This document shows positions 9,043 through 18,965 of a stretch of 64,000 nt of DNA, one piece after another. How positions within the stretch are numbered: the stretch's first letter is position 1; the number at the start of each line of letters is the position of its first letter. The stretch is from Leisingera sp. SS27. Its GTDB lineage: Bacteria; Pseudomonadota; Alphaproteobacteria; Rhodobacterales; Rhodobacteraceae. The position numbers were made by a program, and so were the translations under genes. The notes below the pieces were generated by a model. That model saw only the letters and a program-made list of their open reading frames with translations. It made no database searches and was not told the DNA's origin. Location of the stretch: the NCBI RefSeq assembly GCF_028368855.1, contig NZ_JAQNCY010000001.1, forward strand, positions 620,001-684,000, given 5' to 3'.

Positions 9043-9381
9043 TCAAAGAACCGCGGTGCGGTCTTCCAGGATCTTGCCCCAGGTGAAAATCTCATAGGAC
9101 CGGAAAGCAGGCACGTAAAACGGGTCGCCATGGATCAGATGCTCCACCTCGATCCGGTCCTCGGCTTCGACAATCCACAATGCGCCGCAGAAATCGCCAT
9201 CCGTGTCCGGTTTCAGCCCGCCGCCGATGCGCAGCTCCGGGTGATCCTCGACATAGGCCACATGGGCATCGCGACGGGCTTTATCGGCGCGGATATCCAT
9301 CATCGCAGGCGCATCGCGGAACATCACCGCCCAGCGGGTCAGTGCGGGTGCGGATTTGCGGGCTTCAATTGCGGCGGTCAT
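9043..9381 (-). CDS. YciI-like protein, second of a tandem pair
   Basis: A 112-residue ferredoxin-like fold protein of the YCII family (small proteins of mostly unknown function, some acting as dehydrochlorinase-like or chlorite-related enzymes). The characteristic His/Asp region is seen in RRDAHVAYVEDHPELRIGGG and the C-terminal FYVPAFRSYEIFTWG. It overlaps the upstream YciI gene by ATGA (9378-9381), so the two are translationally coupled. The two products are clearly paralogous along their length, which points to a tandem duplication and perhaps a heterodimer. Confidence 0.85.
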   Translation of the reverse strand: MTAAIEARKSAPALTRWAVMFRDAPAMMDIRADKARRDAHVAYVEDHPELRIGGGLKPDTDGDFCGALWIVEAEDRIEVEHLIHGDPFYVPAFRSYEIFTWGKILEDRTAVL

Positions 9382-9677
9382 GAAAACATCCCCTGGATGG
9401 CAGAGGCGGTGCCCCATTCAGTGATCTTGTAAGTGCGCAAGGAGGCCACGTAATAAGGGTCCTGCAGGATCAACCGCTCCACATCCTGGCGGGTCTCGGC
9501 CTCCACATTCCAGATCGCACCGGGGAAGTCCTGCATCGGCCGCATCGCCAGCGCACCGCCGATCTGCAGCTCGGGCCGTGCGCGCACAAAGGCGATATGC
9601 GCCTCGCGCCGCTTCTTGTCGCTGCGCACCCGGTCCATTTCGGGCTTGTCCGTGAATGTGACGGTCCAGCGTGCCAT
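9378..9677 (-). CDS. YciI-like protein, first of a tandem pair
   Basis: A 99-residue YCII-family protein. Shared features with the following gene include RREAHIAFVRARPELQIGGA and PYYVASLRTYKITEWG. The ATG at 9677 is preceded by GAGGGGAAAG, a strong ribosome-binding sequence; an in-frame upstream start at 9734 lacks one. The family usually dimerises with a conserved Asp-His pair in the putative active site; the substrate is unknown here. Confidence 0.85.
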   Translation of the reverse strand: MARWTVTFTDKPEMDRVRSDKKRREAHIAFVRARPELQIGGALAMRPMQDFPGAIWNVEAETRQDVERLILQDPYYVASLRTYKITEWGTASAIQGMFS

Positions 9678-9822
9678 GGCTTTCCCCTCGTTATGCCTCC
9701 TCTCGCGGATAACGCCGATGCCCTGCGGCATCATAGGGCCAGATCATAACACGGTTTACGGCCAATTCGGGAAACCGCATTGCACGCAAGACGGGCAGTC
9801 CGCCCGCCCTGCACTGTCATGC

Positions 9823-10215
9823 CTAGGCCGGATGCCCCTGCGACTGCTTTGCCCCGTCGCAGATTTCATACCAGCCGGGTTTCTCGCCCACGAACTCATG
9901 AAAACTGTTTCCGGCCTCCAGCACCCCGTCCAGCGCATTTGCAGCAATCGGGAAGCTGTCCTCCTCGGACAGGATCTCCCCCAGCGAGCTGCCGCAGATC
10001 CGGCAGAAGCAGCGGCCGTATTTATAAGGCGGCGCAGGCTGATACAGCGCCACCTCCTCCTTGCCCGCAATCCAGTGCAAATCGGCCTTCTTCACAAACA
10101 CGATGGTGCTGGCCCCGGCCTTGCGGCAGCGGGAGCAATGGCAAGTGCCCATCAGCGCAGGCTGCGCCATTAGTTCGAATTTCACAGCACCACAACAGCA
10201 GCTTCCCTCAATCAT
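9823..10215 (-). CDS. GFA (CENP-V/GFA) zinc-binding domain protein
   Basis: A 130-residue single-domain protein of the glutathione-dependent formaldehyde-activating (GFA) fold. Zinc-binding cysteines are visible in GSCCCGAVKF, CHCSRCRKAGA and FCRICGSS, in the order and spacing of the family. Most such proteins are of unknown activity and the name does not prove a role in formaldehyde metabolism. The ATG at 10215 is used because AGAAGGA lies 8-9 bases upstream and the family usually starts just before the first Cys cluster; a TTG seven codons upstream is possible. Monocistronic by spacing. Confidence 0.85.
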   Translation of the reverse strand: MIEGSCCCGAVKFELMAQPALMGTCHCSRCRKAGASTIVFVKKADLHWIAGKEEVALYQPAPPYKYGRCFCRICGSSLGEILSEEDSFPIAANALDGVLEAGNSFHEFVGEKPGWYEICDGAKQSQGHPA

Positions 10216-10613
10216 TCCGGCAATCCTTCTGTTCAATTGAATTTGATGAGAACATTACGGGAACATTTTCTATCAATCAAGCCGCCGCAGCGTGTTGCGC
10301 AAAGGCCCGCCGCAGCGCACGCCCCGCTTGCACGGCCTTAACCCGGATCTGCGATTGTCATTCCCGCTGCAGCATTTGGCACGGGTCTGGCACCCCGTGC
10401 GAACAGGAGACCAGGCCCCCCAAGACCACTTCCTCAAAAGGTGCAGGGGCGTCACATGGTTGAAGCTTTTGACCGGACCCGGGGCGCGCTGGCGTTCCGG
10501 CCCTACCCTCCGCCCCCGTTGGCGGCGCCGCCATCCTTAATCGCCCCGGAAAGGCACCCAGGCAGGACACGCGCAGACAGAAAGACAGCAGATACGGCAG
10601 CCGCCGGACGCGT
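10216..10613. other. Non-coding or unassigned stretch, 398 bases
   Basis: Lies between the GFA gene (start 10215) and the dGTPase stop (10614), both on the minus strand. The AT-richer part 10216-10275 presumably holds the GFA promoter. The remainder is GC-rich, has open frames on both strands but no convincing ribosome-binding site or recognisable product, and I see no strong palindrome in it. Confidence 0.5.
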
Positions 10614-11783
10614 TCAAACCTCGACCTTCACCCCGATCAGCCGCTCATGCAGCTGCAGGGCAAAGCGGTCGGTCATGCCGGCGATATAGTCGGACACGAT
10701 CCGTGCCAGCGCGGTGCGGCCCTGTGCCGCCGCGATCTCGGCGTGCCAGCGCTCCGGCATGTCCTGCGGGTTGTCCAGGAAATAGGGAAACAGCGCCTCC
10801 ACCACCTTGGAGACCTTGGCCCGCTTCTCCATCACCGAGGGCGCCCGGTACATGCGGGTGAACAGGAAGGCGCGGATTTCCTTCAGCCCCTCCCAGATCT
10901 CGGGCGAGAACTGCACCACCGGGTGATCCAGCGCCCGCACTTCCTCGACGCTTTGTACCCTGGTCTCCGCCAGCAGGGTCCGGGCGGTGGAAATCACATC
11001 CCCCACCATCACCCCGAAGAACCGCCGCAGCGCCTCATGCCGGCGGCGGTTCGGGTCGAGGCCGGGATAGAGCCGGTCCACCTCCCCATAGGCCTGATCC
11101 AACAGCGGCAGCCGCGCCAGATCATCGTCGCTGAACAGCCCGGCCCGCAACGCATCATGCAGATCGTGGTTGTTATAGGCGATGTCATCGGACAGAGCCG
11201 CCACCTGCGCTTCGGCGCTGGCGTGGGTGTGCAGTTCCAGGTCGATGGCCGCATTGCATTCGGCCAGCGCCCAGGGCAGCTCCCCCACTACCGGGCCGTT
11301 GTGTTTTGCAATGGCTTCAAGGGTTTCCCAGGTGAGGTTCAACCCGTCAAATTCGGCGTAGTGGCGCTCCAGGCAGGTGACGATGCGGATTGCCTGAGCG
11401 TTGTGGTCAAAGCCGCCATAAGGTTCCATCAGCGCATGCAGCGCGTCCTCGCCGGTGTGGCCAAAGGGCGTATGGCCCAGATCATGCGCCAGCGCCACCG
11501 CCTCGGTCAGCTCCTGGTTCAGCCTCAGGGCGCCGGCGATGGTGCGGCCCACCTGCCCCACTTCGATGGAATGGGTCAGCCGCGTGCGGTAGTTGTCGCC
11601 CTCATGCTCCACAAAAACTTGCGTCTTGTGCTTCAGCCGCCGGAAGGCACTGGCATGGATGATCCGGTCGCGGTCGCGCTGGTACGGCGAACGGAAGGAG
11701 CTTTCCTCCTCCAGCACCTGCCGTCCGCGGCTGCGGTCCGGCATCGTGGCATAAGGTGCGTGCAGTTCAAATCTTTTAACCAA
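10614..11783 (-). CDS. dgt: dGTP triphosphohydrolase-like HD protein
   Basis: HD-superfamily hydrolase that converts dNTPs to nucleoside and tripolyphosphate, thought to trim dNTP pools. The 389-residue protein has RDRDRIIHASAFRRLKHKTQ near the N-terminus, the first metal His in RTRLTHSIEV and the HD pair in ALAHDLGHTPFGH. It belongs to the shorter dGTPase-like group (about 380-400 residues) of alphaproteobacteria rather than the E. coli type. The start is a TTG at 11783 with GGAG about 9 bases upstream; the next ATG (11744) would remove the family-conserved APYAT segment. Divergent from the A-type Fe-S protein gene. Confidence 0.9.
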   Translation of the reverse strand: MVKRFELHAPYATMPDRSRGRQVLEEESSFRSPYQRDRDRIIHASAFRRLKHKTQVFVEHEGDNYRTRLTHSIEVGQVGRTIAGALRLNQELTEAVALAHDLGHTPFGHTGEDALHALMEPYGGFDHNAQAIRIVTCLERHYAEFDGLNLTWETLEAIAKHNGPVVGELPWALAECNAAIDLELHTHASAEAQVAALSDDIAYNNHDLHDALRAGLFSDDDLARLPLLDQAYGEVDRLYPGLDPNRRRHEALRRFFGVMVGDVISTARTLLAETRVQSVEEVRALDHPVVQFSPEIWEGLKEIRAFLFTRMYRAPSVMEKRAKVSKVVEALFPYFLDNPQDMPERWHAEIAAAQGRTALARIVSDYIAGMTDRFALQLHERLIGVKVEV

Positions 11784-11867
11784 AGCTGGGGCTCCACATC
11801 TTGCCGCGTGAATTGCACCTTTCTATATAAAGCTTTGCGCTGCAACCTACGCCCGTGGAGAAAGCTG
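11784..11867 (+). promoter_or_regulatory. Divergent promoter region with a plausible -35/-10
   Basis: On the plus strand TTGCCG is followed 17 bases later by TATATA, upstream of the A-type Fe-S gene with its GTGGAGAAAG ribosome-binding site. The stretch also has to hold the minus-strand dgt promoter. The assignment is by pattern only. Confidence 0.35.
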
Positions 11868-12191
11868 ATGAACCTGCCCCCCAAAGTCACCGACCGCGCC
11901 TTTGCCCGTCTGGCCGAGATCGGCGCCGCGGACCAGGGCCAGGCACTGCGGGTCGCGGTGGAGGGCGGCGGCTGCTCCGGCTTCCAGTACGAGATTGCGC
12001 TGGATGAGGCCAAGGAAGACGATCTGGTGCTCGAAGGCCAGGGCGAGAAAGTCGTGGTCGACAGCGTTTCCCTGCCGTTTCTGGAAAACGCGGTGATTGA
12101 TTTCACCGAGGAGCTGATCGGCGCACGCTTCACCATCGAGAACCCCAACGCCACCTCCAGCTGCGGCTGCGGCACTTCGTTCTCCATGTAG
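11868..12191 (+). CDS. erpA: A-type iron-sulfur cluster carrier (HesB/IscA/ErpA family)
   Basis: Carrier that delivers Fe-S clusters to apoproteins. The 107-residue product carries all three ligand cysteines: Cys36 in GGGCSGFQYEI and Cys99/Cys101 in the C-terminal SSCGCGTSFSM. The ATG at 11868 has GGAGAAAG at ideal distance. It is divergent from dgt and is followed by an inverted-repeat cluster. ErpA and IscA cannot be told apart with certainty from this sequence; isolated location away from an isc/suf operon favours the ErpA-like role. Confidence 0.9.
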   Translation: MNLPPKVTDRAFARLAEIGAADQGQALRVAVEGGGCSGFQYEIALDEAKEDDLVLEGQGEKVVVDSVSLPFLENAVIDFTEELIGARFTIENPNATSSCGCGTSFSM

Positions 12192-12195
12192 CCCC

Positions 12196-12283
12196 GCCGT
12201 TTTCCGGCGCGGAAAACGGCCCGGAAAACACGTGTTTTCCGAGCCGGAATTATCGCATAATTCCGGCGCCCCTTGCGGGGCGC
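12196..12283. repeat. Intergenic inverted-repeat cluster (four adjacent perfect stems)
   Basis: Four perfect inverted repeats are packed into 88 bases between convergent genes: arms GCCGTTTTCC at 12196-12205/12211-12220; the 20-bp palindrome CGGAAAACACGTGTTTTCCG at 12222-12241; arms GCCGGAATTAT at 12243-12253/12257-12267; arms GCGCCCC at 12266-12272/12277-12283. The loops are 0-5 bases. No T-tract follows. The architecture matches the clusters at 8975 and 22075 though the sequences differ. Confidence 0.8.
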
Positions 12284-12303
12284 GACGGGTTCCGGGTCAG
12301 ACG

Positions 12304-13221
12304 TTAAGGATCGGTCCGCAGCCGCCCGGCGACACGCCACCGCATAGCCGGCGCGAACTGGTCCCAGACCAGATACAGGCCGGATGCAATCACGATGGCG
12401 CCGCCCAAGTAGCTGGAGGCCGGCGGAAACTCCCCGAAGAACACCGCACCAATGACGGCCATCCAGATGAACTGCAGGTTCATCAGCGGTGTGACCGCAT
12501 AGGACGCCAGCAGGCGCAGCGCCACCACCAGCAGCCAGCGCGCCCCGAACAGCAGGAACGCATAGGCCGCAGCCCAGCCCACATCCGCCAGCGGCATCGG
12601 CACCCAGACAAAGGGCAGCGCCAGCAGCATCGCACCGCACAGCGTGAGGTTCGGATAAAACACCTGCGCCAGCGCATTGCTCTCAACCCGGCCGATAAAC
12701 CGTGCCATGGTCATGGAAAAGGTGCCGGAAACAACCGCGGCAAATGCCACCAGATGCCCCGTCGCAGAATGGCTGCCGTCACCGCTATGCGGCAGCAGGA
12801 ACAGCACCCCGGTAAAGCCCGCCAGCAGTGCAATCCAGGCCGCCGGCCGCACCGGCTCCTTCAGCACGAGGCCAGACATCGCCCCCGCCAAGAGCGGCAT
12901 CAGGCCGATGAACACAAACACTTCAGCAAAGGGCAGGAGCCGGAAGGCGTAGAAGAAACAGACCGCGGCAACCAGCGTCGCCACCGAACGCAACGCCATC
13001 GCCCGCGGGCAGCGGGTGCGGAAGCCGCCGCGCTGCCGGGGCATCCTGTCGGCCAGCAGGCAAAAGCCAGCGACCATAGCCCCCGACAGCGCATAAAGCT
13101 GTGCCGCCGCATACTGGCCCGCCAGCAGCTTGGTGATCCCGTCAGCGGAGGCGATCAGCCCGGTATAGGCCACCACCAGCAGCGCCCCGCCCAGGGCCTG
13201 GTTACGCGAACACGCCATCAT
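12304..13221 (-). CDS. EamA/DMT family transporter (putative exporter)
   Basis: A ten-helix inner-membrane protein of about 305 residues with two EamA repeats, as in RhaT/YdcZ-type exporters of metabolites. The N-terminal helix (LGGALLVVAYTGLIASADGI) and the C-terminal repeat with a loop MNLQFIWMAVIGAVFFGE are typical. The start lies in ATGATG at 13218-13221 and overlaps the stop of the preceding gene as ATGA, so it is translationally coupled to the unassigned helical protein and hence to the repeat-peptide gene. That coupling is the only clue to substrate: it may export the product of that operon. Confidence 0.85.
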   Translation of the reverse strand: MMACSRNQALGGALLVVAYTGLIASADGITKLLAGQYAAAQLYALSGAMVAGFCLLADRMPRQRGGFRTRCPRAMALRSVATLVAAVCFFYAFRLLPFAEVFVFIGLMPLLAGAMSGLVLKEPVRPAAWIALLAGFTGVLFLLPHSGDGSHSATGHLVAFAAVVSGTFSMTMARFIGRVESNALAQVFYPNLTLCGAMLLALPFVWVPMPLADVGWAAAYAFLLFGARWLLVVALRLLASYAVTPLMNLQFIWMAVIGAVFFGEFPPASSYLGGAIVIASGLYLVWDQFAPAMRWRVAGRLRTDP

Positions 13222-14279
13222 GCGGCCCCTGCATTGCCCGCCCGGGCAAATCCCTCGAAGAAGCTTGCGAAGCCGGCACAGCTGCGCTCTGCTGCGCACA
13301 GCAGCCCATGCTCTTCCTCGTTCAGCATGGCTTCGGTCCGCGCTTTGACCGCGCTCCAGCCCGGCCGGCCTGTTCCAGCCTCGAAAACGGCTTCTGAAAG
13401 GCTTCTCAAGATACTTCCTCCCCGCACCGCTGACACCTGCACGCCCCTTTCGGGTACCGCCTGCCGGAAGGGTTTTCGTCCGGACAGGATCATGAGCCAG
13501 TTAACAACAAAATACTCGTGATAAGAATCGTGAAGTCCAGAGAATTCTCGCTCTGATAGAGTAAAGGCGGAAACCTGCCTGTCAAGCCAGCCCTCCCAGG
13601 CGGCAGGCGGCTGCTGCCCGCCATAGCGCAGGGCAATGCAAATCTCGGCCAGCAGATCAGCGTTCTGATCGAGAAAAGCCACCAGGCCGGCATACTCGAG
13701 ACTGGTCAGCGCCGCCTGCGGCAGTTGCGGGTCGCGGCGGCCGTACTCCGACAGGTAGAAGACGATGTGGGTCAGCTCGTATGCGGCCTTTTTGTTCGGA
13801 ATGGCAAAGGTTTCGGGACGCGAGATGAAGGCACGCAGCCGGTCATCCAACCCGTCGTCCCGCAAGACAACACCGCGGCGCGCCAGCAGGCGGCGGGCCT
13901 CGGCCCGCTGAAGGTCGGACAGTTCGGCTTGCACCAGGCCCTGCGCTTCGACCCATTCCGCCAGTTGCGCGCCAGCTTCACCGGGCAGGCCCAGATCCTC
14001 CAGATCCAGGCAGATCGACAGGATGAAGCGGTAATATTGGCGGAAGAAACTGATGCGCCGCGCCGCACCGTCATAGAACTCCTGAAGCGGTGCCAGGGCC
14101 TCAGCGGCAACATCGGCCCCGGTGCATTCCAGAATATTCAGCAACTCGGCGTTTTCCTTGAGCCAGAACACATCCTCCTGCGGGCGCCGCTGCGTGGCAA
14201 AGCTGCCAATCAGCGCGGTTTGCGCAGCTGCCCGGGACTGGCGGGCGGCGGATGAGAAGAACGGAATGATCTGGGCCAT
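13218..14279 (-). CDS. Unassigned mostly helical protein, partner of the repeat-peptide gene
   Basis: I do not recognise the family. The 353-residue product is soluble-looking and rich in amphipathic helices (for example about residues 100-135, 190-220, 290-345). Striking segments are an aromatic-rich stretch RRISFFRQYYRFILS (about 74-88), the pattern YELTHIVFYLSEYG (167-180) with conserved-looking His171, and SYHEYFVVNWL (252-262). The succession of paired helices would suit an alpha/alpha-toroid or helical-repeat enzyme, but no catalytic motif is certain. The ATG at 14279 follows an exact AGGAGG; a longer start at 14339 lacks one. It sits between the [M/L]FSSGS repeat gene upstream and the EamA gene it overlaps by ATGA. 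Context suggests processing, modification or escorting of the repeat peptide. Confidence 0.8.
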   Translation of the reverse strand: MAQIIPFFSSAARQSRAAAQTALIGSFATQRRPQEDVFWLKENAELLNILECTGADVAAEALAPLQEFYDGAARRISFFRQYYRFILSICLDLEDLGLPGEAGAQLAEWVEAQGLVQAELSDLQRAEARRLLARRGVVLRDDGLDDRLRAFISRPETFAIPNKKAAYELTHIVFYLSEYGRRDPQLPQAALTSLEYAGLVAFLDQNADLLAEICIALRYGGQQPPAAWEGWLDRQVSAFTLSEREFSGLHDSYHEYFVVNWLMILSGRKPFRQAVPERGVQVSAVRGGSILRSLSEAVFEAGTGRPGWSAVKARTEAMLNEEEHGLLCAAERSCAGFASFFEGFARAGNAGAA

Positions 14280-14313
14280 GAAAACCTCCTGCGGGAAAGG
14301 GCGGCGCGGCAAG

Positions 14314-14369
14314 GGCGGCTCCGGATGCGGAACCGCCAAAGGTCAGGGGCCGGGAGGGAAACCGGCCCC
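14314..14369 (-). promoter_or_regulatory. Two stem-loops between the repeat gene and its downstream partner
   Basis: A perfect 8-bp stem (GGGGCCGG 14346-14353 / CCGGCCCC 14362-14369, 8-base loop) starts 8 bases after the repeat gene stop; a second stem with one mismatch lies at 14314-14337 (GGCGG-TCCG paired with CGGA-CCGCC). No T-tract follows, so this is better read as an attenuator, processing site or 3'-end stabiliser that lets the repeat peptide be made in excess over the next protein than as a full terminator. Confidence 0.6.
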
Positions 14370-14376
14370 GCTCAGG

Positions 14377-14982
14377 TCAGCTGCCCGAGGAGAACAGCCG
14401 GGTTGCGTCGCCATCGCTGGTGCGGGCTTCTGCCGCCGGCGCAGAGCCGGAGGAAAACAGATGCGTTCCCTCGCCTGCATCAGCCTCAGCCGTTGCCGAC
14501 GGAGCCGAGCCGGAGGAGAACATCTCTACACCTTCGCCCGCGCCTGTTCCTGCCTGCGCTGCCGGGGCCGAACCCGAGGAGAACATTTCCGTCAGATCAC
14601 CCGCAGCAACCTCAGATTGAGCGCAAGGTGCAGAGCCGGAAGAAAACATCTGCACCAGATCGCCTGCAGACGTGTCTGCCCGGGATGCAGGCGCGGAACC
14701 GGAGGAGAACATTTCCACCAAGTCGCCGGCCGTGGTTTCGCTGCGGGCCGACGGCGCCGAACCGCTGGAGAACAGCCCGGTTTCACCGCCTGCCCAGCTC
14801 TCTGCCATCTGCGGCATGGAGCCGGAAGAAAACAGCGATACGCCCTCTCCTGCTGACATATCCGCGGTGCATTCGGGTGCGGAACCGGAAGAGAACATCT
14901 CTGTTGCGCCGCCTTCGAACAGGCTGGCGCCTGCGGCCGGACGGGTGGCGTGGATGGCTTGGATTTTACGCTGAGCAGTCAT
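14377..14982 (-). CDS. Tandem-repeat peptide, nine [M/L]FSSGS units; putative multicore precursor
   Basis: A 201-residue protein made almost wholly of a 21-residue repeat. After a 28-residue N-terminal part (MTAQRKIQAIHATRPAAGAS followed by a degenerate LFEGG), units start at residues 29, 50, 70, 91, 112, 133, 154, 175 and 196; the last is cut to LFSSGS, the exact C-terminus. Each unit is [M/L]FSSGS(A/M)P plus a 12-13-residue variable spacer with Asp/Glu and usually an Ala-Gly-(Asp/Glu) near its end. The hexapeptide is nearly invariant while spacers vary, as in multicore precursor peptides or in repeats under motif-level selection. No membrane segment and only two Cys. The ATG at 14982 has only a weak GGGG upstream; a GTG at 15066 is an alternative. 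It leads an apparent operon with an unassigned helical protein and an EamA exporter. Confidence 0.82.
   Translation of the reverse strand: MTAQRKIQAIHATRPAAGASLFEGGATEMFSSGSAPECTADMSAGEGVSLFSSGSMPQMAESWAGGETGLFSSGSAPSARSETTAGDLVEMFSSGSAPASRADTSAGDLVQMFSSGSAPCAQSEVAAGDLTEMFSSGSAPAAQAGTGAGEGVEMFSSGSAPSATAEADAGEGTHLFSSGSAPAAEARTSDGDATRLFSSGS
14380..14898 (-). repeat. 63-bp coding direct repeats (nine units, one of 60 bp)
   Basis: The units encode [M/L]FSSGS(A/M)P plus a spacer. On the plus strand each shows a near-constant block GAGCCGGAGGAGAAC or close variants, separated by divergent sequence. One unit (residues 50-69) is 60 rather than 63 bases. Conservation is highest over the hexapeptide codons and includes synonymous changes, so selection on protein is likely on top of repeat homogenisation. 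Confidence 0.9.
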
Positions 14983-15343
14983 GTTGGAACCCCATTCGTT
15001 AAGGACAAAAGGCTCCTTGACGCTGGCACGGGTGCCGCGCAGCGCAAACAGAAAATGCAATTTCACATTGTATTTTGTAGTTTCAATTACTTTAACTTCA
15101 AGCTGCTATTTTTTGCGCAATTTCAATTATTTCAATTCATCCACAGGATATGCACCGCGTTATTCACACGCATATTATTGCAAAGTAAAGAAACTCAACC
15201 CTAGGGGTATTTTTCACCCATGCAAAACGCCAGCATCCGGCGGCGTCAAAGGTGATTCGCGATTCGCGCATCGGGCTTGCCCCGGGGCGCTGATTCAGCG
15301 ATAGATCGGCCCCGAATAAAGAATTCTGCGCCGGAGACAAGCC
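14983..15343 (-). promoter_or_regulatory. AT-rich control region upstream of the repeat-peptide gene, with TTTCAATT repeats
   Basis: This 361-base gap contains no gene and is much more AT-rich than its surroundings from 15050 to 15190. TTTCAATT occurs exactly three times on the plus strand (15081-15088, 15121-15128, 15130-15137). On the minus strand a possible promoter TTGAAG with TACAAA 16 bases on falls inside the AT-rich part, directed at the repeat gene. The repeats read as AATTGAAA toward that gene and could be operator sites or curved DNA. The last part (15200-15343) must also hold the xthA promoter. Confidence 0.5.
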
Positions 15344-16150
15344 ATGAAAATCGCCACTTTTAACATCAATGGCATCAAGGCCCGGGCGCAGGCGCTGCCG
15401 GACTGGCTGGATGAGGCGCAGCCCGACGTGGTGCTGCTGCAGGAAATCAAGTCAGTGGATGAGGCCTTCCCGCGCGAGATCTTCGAGGAGCGCGGCTATA
15501 ACGTCGAAACCCATGGGCAGAAAAGCTTCAATGGCGTGGCGATCCTGTCGAAGCTGCCGCTGGAGGACGTGACGCGCGGGCTGCCCGGCGATGACAGCGA
15601 CGAACAGGCCCGCTGGATCGAGGCCACGGTTGTGGGCAAGCAGGCGATCCGGATTTGCGGCCTCTATCTGCCCAATGGCAACCCGGTTGAGCTGGAGGCG
15701 GACGGCAGCCCGGTGGCGGGCGGCAAATACGCCTATAAGCTGGCCTGGATGAACCGGCTGAAGACACGCGCAGAGGCGCTGATGGCCGCGGAGATGCCCG
15801 CGCTGATGGCCGGGGATTACAACATCATCCCGCAGACCGAGGATGCCAAGCGCCCGGAGGCCTGGCGCGAGGACGCCCTGCACCGGCCGGAAAGCCGCGC
15901 GGCGTTTCAGCGGATCGTCAACCTGGGCTTCACCGAAGCCTTCCGCGCCCGTCATCAGGGGCCGGGACATTACTCCTTCTGGGATTACCAGGCCGGCGCC
16001 TGGAACCGCGACGACGGCATCCGCATCGACCATTTTCTGCTCACACCGCAGGCCGCCGACCTGCTGCGGGACTGCCAGATCGACAAAGACGTGCGCGGGC
16101 GCGAAAAACCCTCCGACCACGTTCCGGTCTGGGTGGATCTGGACATCTGA
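15344..16150 (+). CDS. xthA: Exodeoxyribonuclease III (AP endonuclease)
   Basis: Mg-dependent AP endonuclease / 3'-5' exonuclease for base-excision repair. The 268-residue product begins with MKIATFNINGIKAR and shows the metal-binding LLQEIKSVDEAFP, the active-site AGDYNIIPQ and the C-terminal SDHVPVWVDLDI, all in family order. Length is normal. GGAGACAAG provides the ribosome-binding site. Divergent from the repeat-peptide operon and followed by an inverted-repeat element. Confidence 0.95.
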   Translation: MKIATFNINGIKARAQALPDWLDEAQPDVVLLQEIKSVDEAFPREIFEERGYNVETHGQKSFNGVAILSKLPLEDVTRGLPGDDSDEQARWIEATVVGKQAIRICGLYLPNGNPVELEADGSPVAGGKYAYKLAWMNRLKTRAEALMAAEMPALMAGDYNIIPQTEDAKRPEAWREDALHRPESRAAFQRIVNLGFTEAFRARHQGPGHYSFWDYQAGAWNRDDGIRIDHFLLTPQAADLLRDCQIDKDVRGREKPSDHVPVWVDLDI

Positions 16151-16159
16151 ACGCTGCCC

Positions 16160-16231
16160 GCGCCGCGCATCCGCGCGGCGCTCCGCCCAACGGGAGCGGT
16201 TCATTTTCAATGAAACTGCGACGGGCGGGAG
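16160..16231. repeat. Intergenic structured repeat, copy A
   Basis: Perfect stem with 9-base arms GCGCCGCGC (16160-16168/16173-16181), then GCCCAACGGGAG (16185-16196), then a TTCATT-TTC-AATGAA hairpin (16200-16214), then GGGCGGGAG (16223-16231). Copy B at 22106-22180 has the same order of parts with different but still perfectly paired stems. It lies between convergent genes. Confidence 0.8.
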
Positions 16232-16256
16232 CCGCGCCTGTCCGCCTCTGCCCTCC

Positions 16257-17423
16257 TCAGGCGGTGACGTCGTGGCGGTAGATCCAGTCGAACTGGCTGA
16301 CCATGCGGTCCGGGGCAAATCGGCCGCCCAGTTTCAGCACCTGATGCGCAGGCCAGCTGAGCGGTGCGCGCAGATGGTATTTCCAGGCGTTGTTGCTGGC
16401 GGCCTGCACCACCCTTTCTGCCCGATCCCGGCGGCGCTCCTGGTACATGGCCAGGCCGGAAGCCATTCCCGCGGCTTCCTGCAGGGAGCGCGCCAGCACC
16501 CAGGCATCCTCCAGCGCCAGGTTGGCGCCCTGCGCCATGAAGGGCAGGGTCGGATGCGCGGCGTCGCCCAGGAGGGCAGTGTTTTCGCCGTGCCAGCGCT
16601 CCGCCACCGGATGGCGGAACAGCCCCCAGAGCAGAACCTCCTCCACCGCGTCCAGCAGTGCCGCGGCGCTGCCGCCGAAACCGCGGAAGGCCGCGCGCAG
16701 GTTGACCGGGTCGTCCTTGAGGTTCCAGCCCTCTTCGGCCCAGGCCCGGCGCTCCTGCACTGCAACCAGGTTCATAAGGCTGCCATCGCGCAGGGGATAG
16801 GCCACCAGATGCCGCCCCGGCCCCATGAACACCTGCGCCTCCGGCGGCAGATTCAGGTGGTTGGGCACCGTGGCGCGCCAGGCAACCTGACCGGTGAAGA
16901 AGGGCTTTCGTTCCCCGTTCAGGGCCACCCGGGTTTTCGAATGCAAGCCATCTGCGCCCACCAGCAGATCACCGCTGCACTGCGCACCGTTGCTGAGGTG
17001 AACCAAAGGCTGCGGTCCGGGCTCAACCCGGTCGGCCTTTTGCAAAAGCCGCACCTGCACGCCTTCGCGGCGCGCCGCGCCGGCCAGGATGCCGATGAGG
17101 TCAGAGCGGTGCACGAAGTAATAGGGCAGTCCGGCGGCATATTCATCCAGATCCAGCCGCAGCACCTGATTGCCGCGCCGGTGGCCGCGCAGCACCACCG
17201 CGCGCGCGCGCTGCGAGCACCAGGCCAGATCATCGGCCAGCCCCAGCGCCTTCAGCACCTTGACCCCGTTGGGAGTGATCTGCAGCCCCGCACCGACCTC
17301 TGAGATTCTCTCGGCCTGCTCCAGCACGGTGACGGATGCCCCGAAGCGGCGCAGCGCCAGCGCTGCGGCCAAGCCGCCGATTCCGGCGCCGATTACGGTT
17401 GTTTTCAGGCCTTTGAGGTCCAT
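16257..17423 (-). CDS. FAD-dependent aromatic monooxygenase (salicylate-hydroxylase-like)
   Basis: A 388-residue class A flavoprotein hydroxylase using NAD(P)H and O2. The Rossmann FAD motif VIGAGIGGLAAALALRRFG is near the N-terminus, the NAD(P)H/FAD motif VGADGLHSKTR near residue 155 and the second FAD motif ALLGDAAHPTLPFMAQGA near 285. Family members hydroxylate salicylate, 3- or 6-hydroxybenzoate, nicotinate or similar rings; nothing nearby identifies the substrate. The ATG at 17423 is chosen because the motif then begins about residue 9, as usual; an in-frame extension to 17495 would run into the dksA terminator. Confidence 0.88.
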   Translation of the reverse strand: MDLKGLKTTVIGAGIGGLAAALALRRFGASVTVLEQAERISEVGAGLQITPNGVKVLKALGLADDLAWCSQRARAVVLRGHRRGNQVLRLDLDEYAAGLPYYFVHRSDLIGILAGAARREGVQVRLLQKADRVEPGPQPLVHLSNGAQCSGDLLVGADGLHSKTRVALNGERKPFFTGQVAWRATVPNHLNLPPEAQVFMGPGRHLVAYPLRDGSLMNLVAVQERRAWAEEGWNLKDDPVNLRAAFRGFGGSAAALLDAVEEVLLWGLFRHPVAERWHGENTALLGDAAHPTLPFMAQGANLALEDAWVLARSLQEAAGMASGLAMYQERRRDRAERVVQAASNNAWKYHLRAPLSWPAHQVLKLGGRFAPDRMVSQFDWIYRHDVTA

Positions 17424-17461
17424 GGGGGTCCCGCAGTTTCTCCGCCTGCTCCCAATGGAAC

Positions 17462-17490
17462 AAAAAACGCCGGAGCAAAAGGCCCCGGCG
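17462..17490 (-). terminator. Rho-independent terminator of the DksA gene
   Basis: Read on the minus strand, a GC-rich stem (CGCCGGGGC paired with GCTCCGGCG, one mismatch, TTTT loop) is followed at once by TTTTTT. It lies 38 bases after the DksA stop. Confidence 0.8.
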
Positions 17491-17527
17491 CTCATGTTTG
17501 TCGCGTTTTTACCGCAAAAATCAGCGG

Positions 17528-17950
17528 TTAATCGTCGCGGTGAACCTTTTCGCGGCGCTCGTGGCGCTCCTGTGCTTCCAGGCTCATGGTGGCGATGGGA
17601 CGCGCATCCAGGCGCTTCAGCGAAATCGGATCGCCGGTCACTTCGCAGTAGCCGTATTCGCCCTCGTCGATGCGGCGCAGAGCCGAGTCGATCTTGGCGA
17701 CCAGCTTGCGCTGGCGGTCGCGGGTGCGCAGCTCCAGCGCGCGGTCAGTCTCTTCGCTGGCACGGTCGGCGACATCGGGAATATTGCGGGTGCTGTCCTG
17801 CAGCCCCTCAATCGTGTCGCGGGTATCCGCCAGCAGGTCCTGCTTCCATTCCAATAGCTTGCGTCGGAAATACTCAGTCTGCCGTTCATTCATGAACGGC
17901 TCATCTTCAGCCGGTCGGTAGTCGTCCGGCAGAAACACTTCTTGCTTCAT
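17528..17950 (-). CDS. dksA: RNA polymerase-binding transcription factor DksA, Cys-poor zinc-finger form
   Basis: Secondary-channel regulator acting with ppGpp in the stringent response. The 140-residue protein has the coiled coil with the tip motif DxxDxA kept (DVADRA, residues 59-64) and the C-terminal globular region YGYCEVTGDPISLKRLDARP. Of the four zinc cysteines of E. coli DksA only Cys102 remains; the others are Thr, Ser and Ala/Gln. This resembles zinc-independent DksA variants known from pseudomonads and Rhodobacter. The ATG at 17950 has AAGGAG upstream; 17986 is an alternative start. A rho-independent terminator follows. Confidence 0.9.
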   Translation of the reverse strand: MKQEVFLPDDYRPAEDEPFMNERQTEYFRRKLLEWKQDLLADTRDTIEGLQDSTRNIPDVADRASEETDRALELRTRDRQRKLVAKIDSALRRIDEGEYGYCEVTGDPISLKRLDARPIATMSLEAQERHERREKVHRDD

Positions 17951-18125
17951 TTCGGCTCCTTCGGTCTGGCCCATAATGCTGGTCATAACCTGTACCTCAA
18001 CATTTTGGCTCCCCCTCTGCCGCAGCGTTTATCCCTATCGGACAGGAATGTCACTACACAATAGTGGCGCTGTTTGGTTAAAACCGTGATAACAAGACGG
18101 CAACCACGGCTGACACGGGAAAGAT

Positions 18126-18965
18126 ATGCGATTTCAGGGCACTAAGGAATATGTTGCGACCGATGACCTTAAGGTTGCGGTTAACGCGGCGGTGACGCTG
18201 GAGCGGCCGCTGCTGGTCAAGGGGGAGCCCGGAACCGGCAAAACAGAGCTGGCCAAGCAGGTTGCAGAGGCGCTGGGGCTCAGAATGATCGAGTGGAACG
18301 TGAAATCCACCACCCGCGCCCAGCAGGGGCTCTATGAATACGATGCCGTCAGCCGCCTGCGCGACAGCCAGCTGGGCGAAGAACGCGTGCATGACGTGAA
18401 GAACTACATCCGCAAGGGCAAGCTGTGGGAGGCCTTCGAGGCGGACGAGAAAGTCGTGCTGCTGATCGACGAGATCGACAAGGCCGACATCGAGTTTCCC
18501 AACGACCTCCTGCAGGAACTCGATAAGATGGAATTCCACGTCTACGAGACCGGCGAGACCATCAAGGCGAAGCACCGCCCGATCATGATCATCACTTCCA
18601 ATAACGAAAAGGAGCTGCCGGACGCCTTCTTGCGCCGCTGCTTCTTCCACTACATCCGCTTCCCGGATGCGGAGACGATGAAAAAGATCGTCGAGGTGCA
18701 CCACCCCGGCATCAAGGAAGCGCTGCTGACCGCCGCGCTGACCCAGTTCTACGAGATCCGCGAGACGCAAGGCTTGAAGAAGAAGCCCTCCACCTCGGAG
18801 GTGATCGACTGGCTGAAGCTATTGCTGGCCGAAGACCTGAGCCCGGAGGATATTGCGCGCAACGGCGCCGATGCGCTGCCGAAACTGCACGGGGCGCTGC
18901 TGAAGAACGAGCAGGACGTGCATCTGTTTGAACGCCTGGCGTTCATGGCGCGCGGACGGCGCTGA
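18126..18965 (+). CDS. MoxR-type AAA+ ATPase
   Basis: A 279-residue AAA+ chaperone-like ATPase. Walker A GEPGTGKT is at residues 33-40, Walker B LLIDEID at 112-118, and sensor 1 lies in IMIITSNNEKELPDAFLRRC. MoxR proteins typically act with a von Willebrand A (CoxE-type) protein in maturing metal enzymes or other complexes; such a partner is encoded 1.8 kb downstream on the same strand, with a lipoprotein and a small membrane protein between. The target complex is not encoded nearby. Divergent from dksA. Confidence 0.93.
   Translation: MRFQGTKEYVATDDLKVAVNAAVTLERPLLVKGEPGTGKTELAKQVAEALGLRMIEWNVKSTTRAQQGLYEYDAVSRLRDSQLGEERVHDVKNYIRKGKLWEAFEADEKVVLLIDEIDKADIEFPNDLLQELDKMEFHVYETGETIKAKHRPIMIITSNNEKELPDAFLRRCFFHYIRFPDAETMKKIVEVHHPGIKEALLTAALTQFYEIRETQGLKKKPSTSEVIDWLKLLLAEDLSPEDIARNGADALPKLHGALLKNEQDVHLFERLAFMARGRR

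Follow-up and report, generated by a model that had tools for sequence, protein, structure and literature searches.

What does a marine bacterium make with a protein that repeats the motif FSSGS nine times, encoded ahead of an uncharacterised helical enzyme and an exporter? The question is raised by three genes on the (-) strand of a 64,000 nt stretch of the Leisingera sp. SS27 genome (NZ_JAQNCY010000001.1, positions 620,001-684,000; here termed the window, to which coordinates refer). These are a repeat gene, the array, for 201 residues (14377..14982), a DUF6902/DUF6895 gene for 353 residues (13218..14279) and a gene for a 305-residue small-molecule exporter, assigned to the EamA family by Pfam scan (12304..13221). 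Taken together, they resemble a production line, so far undescribed, for a modified peptide specific to the species. The reading preferred here, at a probability of roughly 60%, is a cassette of the type producing ribosomally synthesized and post-translationally modified peptides (RiPPs), in which the array would be a multicore precursor, DUF6902 would modify and probably epimerise each unit, an outside protease would cut the array and EamA would export the short pieces. A multicore RiPP-type system is suggested because array and enzyme are strictly paired, a constant flank surrounds a changing core, the array has a leader-like start, a sister enzyme family has precursor-like genes of its own and, according to the title of the work concerned, an epimerase has been reported in that family. 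The initial annotation of this locus, whose span of 13218..14982 omitted the exporter gene, had already proposed a multicore peptide system; co-occurrence, varying unit number and the cassette now lend it partial support, while modification, cleavage and export remain deductions from sequence.

In the array protein, FSSGS begins at residues 30, 51, 71, 92, 113, 134, 155, 176 and 197, corresponding to 14881..14895, 14818..14832, 14758..14772, 14695..14709, 14632..14646, 14569..14583, 14506..14520, 14443..14457 and 14380..14394, all on the (-) strand. The stop codon directly follows the ninth copy, and the C-terminus of the protein is FSSGS. The nine units, the exact end on the motif and the 28 residues ahead of the first MFSSGS, all described in the initial annotation, are borne out; the 21-residue period given there applies to seven of the eight spacings, which run 21, 20 and then six times 21. 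These 28 leader-like residues start with MTAQRK (14899..14982, (-)), and the window units have the form G[DE]xx-x-[ML]-FSSGS, mostly followed by AP. In 2000 residue shuffles no 5-mer occurred more than three times, compared to nine for FSSGS. The proportions of synonymous (pS) and nonsynonymous (pN) differences are 0.62 and 0.09 in the core codons, against 0.73 and 0.47 in the spacer. As the core codons vary synonymously, the motif is maintained by selection on the protein and is more than a recent duplication of the DNA.

The pairing of array and enzyme is strict. DUF6902 is present in 21/21 genomes of the genus, with the gene order array, DUF6902, EamA kept at all 21 loci and with 4 (one genome), 8 (four), 9 (nine) or 10 units (seven) in arrays that all end on FSSGS. 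In the family, 82 of 296 genomes carry DUF6902, while a class-wide sample of 289 genomes yielded four above the cut-off, all from the same family, and a fifth match below it. An array profile (A4) built from six arrays and searched in the same 296 genomes matched 74/82 genomes with DUF6902 and 0/214 others (Fisher p 3e-61). Eight genomes with DUF6902 escaped the profile (G054, G056, G086, G110, G146, G174, G269 and G274), five of which carry arrays with unusual cores as detected by motif script (L149, L143, L138, L144 and L147). Of the 82 family loci, 80 were analysed as the family set, the other two being already in the genus set. In 77 of these 80, the array immediately precedes DUF6902, namely in 75 found by motif script (536 units) and in two added through a profile match, the partly masked L100 and L133 at a contig edge; no array was seen at L137, at the distant member L151 or at L152, where the contig ends. 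The initial annotation had staked its proposal on co-occurrence of the two genes and on a unit number that varies while the pair persists, and both expectations held, with 4-10 units in the genus and 2-20 across the family loci.

Between loci, the core changes while its surroundings stay. The family loci display 39 consensus cores, the commonest being FSSGS (14 loci), FTSWS (10), FTSGS (4) and FTSGL (4). Several contain Cys (FTTSC, FITSC, FTCGL and FTNWC), so that the near absence of this residue noted earlier is true of the window array and not of the family; MMCCS, YIAGL and STSSF depart further. Within an array the core is kept, with 504/536 units identical to the consensus core of the array they belong to and 57/75 arrays being fully uniform. 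The locus-weighted unit grammar comprises Gly at -6 (97%), Asp/Glu at -5 (81%), Phe at 0 (87%), Ser/Thr/Cys at +2 (96%) and Pro at +6 (72%). Units are spaced by 20 or 21 residues in 423/460 cases and by 8 residues in 12, and 53/71 arrays checked have an M..A..K start ahead of the first core. The C-terminus falls exactly on a core in 42/74 arrays, 2-9 residues beyond it in 30 and 16 or 18 beyond it in two. On a tree of 75 enzymes (a quick search, with 9/72 inner branches strongly supported), the consensus core changed at least 47 times, compared to 57 times on average and never fewer than 52 in 200 shuffles of 38 core labels. Since 47 lies below the shuffle minimum, core and enzyme lineage are linked, yet close enzymes often carry different cores.

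Neither protein had been tied to a named family in the initial annotation, which still applies to the array, matched above cut-off by neither Pfam nor NCBIfam models, and no longer to the enzyme. The latter matches Pfam DUF6902 (PF21843) over its full length (E 2.1e-144, 481.2 bits against a cut-off of 27) and also DUF6895 (PF21836) over residues 27-231 (E 4.9e-25, 88.9 bits against 23.8), with no match in NCBIfam. Its closest named homologues are from Leisingera. Residues Y167, H171, F174, D208, E212 and H254 are invariant in 9/9 diverse DUF6902/DUF6895 members, and C214 is absent from the DUF6895 members compared. The enzyme is predicted to be an all-helical alpha/alpha toroid. It has no PDB sequence match to known alpha/alpha-toroid enzymes such as prenyltransferase beta subunits and class II terpene cyclases: sequence searches with the protein (P0002) and with A1 found nothing in the PDB, and a Foldseek search of the PDB returned nothing at E <= 0.001. 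The sole PDB match in the search with A3, 2i71, was discarded as chance level (E 0.29). No match was found in plasmid and phage collections, and searching proteins with a mixed alignment returned almost only DUF6902 and nothing further on DUF6895. Searches of a literature library found no paper on DUF6902 or DUF6749 and none on RiPPs in combination with Roseobacter, while the FSSGS papers found were off subject by their titles and the beginnings of their abstracts. The label DUF6749, which one source attaches to one array homologue, was not adopted, as no Pfam model matched this homologue or eight others scanned.

The sister family DUF6895 provides the link to a reaction. An epimerase of this family involved in lasso-peptide modification has been reported, to judge by the title (Shi et al., ACS Catal. 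2026; cited in PMC13352647). DUF6902 resembles it in scoring above the DUF6895 cut-off and in sharing the H, D, E, H set of the DUF6895 genes compared. As far as that title describes the lasso epimerase, DUF6902 differs in its proposed tandem-array substrate, its C214, its longer C-terminal part and the lack of lasso genes among the cassette neighbours searched. DUF6895 matches 10 of 299 genomes of a phylum sample, nine over the cut-off. Within the window's own family there are seven matches, six of which carry DUF6902 and are thus seen by both models; the seventh (G230) is a short frame without DUF6902. DUF6895-type genes over the Pfam cut-off occur in Rhizobium sp. CF122, Gilvimarinus agarilyticus and a Rhodospirillales metagenome-assembled genome (MAG), and one in a Burkholderiales MAG was recognised by tblastn only. 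In all four loci a short open reading frame (ORF) lies directly upstream. These precursor-like ORFs, at L167:8446-8703 (+), L168:8437-8868 (-), L170 upstream of 7833 (-) and L174:5220-5612 (+), encode 85 residues ending GPWFVLAGDQT in Rhizobium, 143 residues containing a GPW core twice in Gilvimarinus, 78 in the Rhodospirillales MAG and 130, from the first start codon, in the Burkholderiales MAG. Their N-terminal parts are alike by eye (a LIxxAGIID-type helix). Short ORFs with aromatic cores, linked to DUF6895 in four unrelated bacteria, possibly represent another undescribed RiPP type. No precursor was recognised at the DUF6895 locus of Actinophytocola oryzae, which has two or three tandem DUF6895-like genes (L173:4715-7289, (+)). 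No lasso cluster was noticed in the five DUF6895 loci, of which the Pfam scan covered only part of the Rhizobium one. At L169:6112-7108 (+), in the family genome without DUF6902, the short DUF6895 frame (215 residues) follows a 97-residue ORF; this could be a truncated relative that has a precursor of its own.

Gain or loss affects the array, the enzyme and the exporter jointly, the exporter being absent at some loci. An exonuclease-III-like gene lies upstream of the array, divergent from it, in 72/80 family loci (neighbour ORF clustering), and a tblastn search with the window EamA found a relative within the fetched stretch in 59/80, mostly right behind DUF6902 and in one case only 26% identical. 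The exonuclease and Fe-S_biosyn genes, which enclose the cassette in the window at a distance of 3152 nt, were located in 20 family genomes without a DUF6902 match: they are 29-1349 nt apart in 18 and on different contigs in the remaining two. The best EamA relatives in these genomes are at most 37% identical, the closest on the same contig lying, among the matches listed, about 19 kb from the exonuclease gene. Joint gain or loss follows from this closing up of the flanking genes in 18/20 negatives and from the distance of the EamA relatives.

In the mechanism proposed, the array gene would yield a probably disordered precursor with a short N-terminal leader and nine units. In each unit, constant recognition features would be provided by the G[DE] stretch together with the Phe and the Ser/Thr position, and the five-residue core would be the variable part that becomes the product. 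The DUF6902 toroid would dock every unit in its cavity and modify the core, the likely chemistry being an acid/base L-to-D epimerisation of one core residue. Epimerisation is favoured because of the kinship to the DUF6895 lasso epimerase, as reported by title, and because two His and two acidic residues are among the invariant polar ones. The array would then be cut by a protease encoded outside the cassette, and EamA would export the short pieces. Small solutes are what EamA proteins carry, and a short product would therefore be expected. Many RiPP systems rely on outside proteases. The locus contains a small precursor, a dedicated adjacent enzyme and repeated cores behind a leader-like part, which presumably acts as a leader. 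As the available excerpts describe multicore RiPP precursors such as plant RiPPs and graspetides, these share one leader, repeated cores, conserved flanks and an adjacent enzyme and exporter with the array system; unlike them, the latter has no recognised RiPP enzyme class and no protease in the cassette, and its five-residue core switches array-wide between genera. The metal-dependent lasso epimerase MslH, which has a calcineurin-like fold, is reported to use two His/Asp pairs (PMC10406935). This acid/base peptide epimerisation is the chemistry proposed for DUF6902, which differs by its predicted all-helical toroid and for which no sequence kinship to MslH is claimed. A lasso peptide was rejected, as the 12 proteins scanned with Pfam at window 9043-18965 include no lasso cyclase or B protease. 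Lanthipeptides and sactipeptides, considered unlikely from the start, were dismissed likewise: the FSSGS cores lack Cys, and in Pfam the enzyme matches DUF6902/DUF6895 only.

Several points weigh against the RiPP-type reading. The cassette comes without a protease, no such family being found among the same 12 proteins, and the epimerase link depends on the title of the DUF6895 work. L137 and L151 carry DUF6902 away from contig ends without a visible array. In 21/80 loci tblastn found no EamA within the fetched stretch, some of these absences stemming from contig ends; the exporter, earlier counted as part of the operon, belongs to the gained or lost cassette without being seen at every locus. 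Furthermore, the reaction of DUF6902 may differ from that of the DUF6895 epimerase, because C214 is not common to DUF6895 and the Pfam DUF6895 match stops at residue 231. A multicore RiPP-type system with another chemistry, such as a metal-dependent change at the +2 Ser/Thr/Cys or at the Phe, is the strongest alternative, albeit an unlikely one. By interpolation only, the zinc site of protein prenyltransferase beta subunits would fall approximately at E212-x-C214 and H254.

A structural role for the array is improbable. It would be a scaffold, a beta-solenoid of 20-21-residue units with residue ladders, and DUF6902 its chaperone or partner. The regular 20/21 spacing agrees with this, a concerted change of stacked residues would suit a ladder, and in the middle part of the structure model strands of 5-6 residues recur at intervals of 10-11 residues, a weak periodicity that leaves room for a structural repeat. 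However, the model has a mean predicted local distance difference test (pLDDT) score of 52 and a predicted template modelling (pTM) score of 0.41, Foldseek gave no PDB match for it at E <= 10, arrays go down to two units, and some units are 8 residues apart. Less probable still is a reading without chemical change, in which DUF6902 would bind the array as a multivalent or regulatory target, such as a titration buffer; this would suit strict pairing and variable unit number but leaves unexplained the exporter, the changing cores with constant flank and the precursor-like ORFs beside DUF6895.

A bolder form of the RiPP-type reading, offered tentatively and with considerable doubt, is that these cassettes make an undescribed class of peptides of marine Rhodobacteraceae, in which an all-helical toroid would epimerise all units and the five-residue core would act as a private code. 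The joint change of array units between genera, with enzyme and site staying, would make sense for a private, species-specific signal or recognition peptide made in many doses per transcript. The RiPP-type reading gives DUF6902, found in 82 of the 296 family genomes sampled, a testable role and predicts a product sequence for each of the 39 core types. In addition, the same enzyme scaffold stands next to many different cores, some of them with Trp or Cys, and this natural experiment is of use for learning the substrate tolerance of a peptide-modifying enzyme and whether bacteria use arrays as private signals.

The expression signals are as initially described: an AGGAGG ribosome-binding site (14285..14290, (-)) precedes the DUF6902 ATG at 14279, and the EamA start overlaps the DUF6902 stop in an ATGA at 13221-13218. 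The 97 nt gap between array and DUF6902 (14280-14376, (-); folding z -2.15) contains a G+C-rich hairpin of 8 pairs with a loop of 8 (14346..14369, (-)), a possible attenuator. As a general attenuator it is rated weak, because z is below -2 in only 17/71 gaps of relatives (median -0.67). A GGCGTTC...GAACGCC-like hairpin occurs in this gap in several relatives. A scan gave two promoter-like sites against 0.6 expected and five terminator-like ones against 4.2. The families among the 12 Pfam-scanned proteins, cassette included, are YCII, GFA, HD phosphohydrolase, Fe-S_biosyn, EamA, DUF6902, exonuclease, FAD enzyme, DksA and AAA. Two genes overlap at 9043-9417 and 9378-9734 (-), the first encoding a YCII-domain protein and the second a protein without a Pfam match at 1e-5 that is YCII-like by eye.
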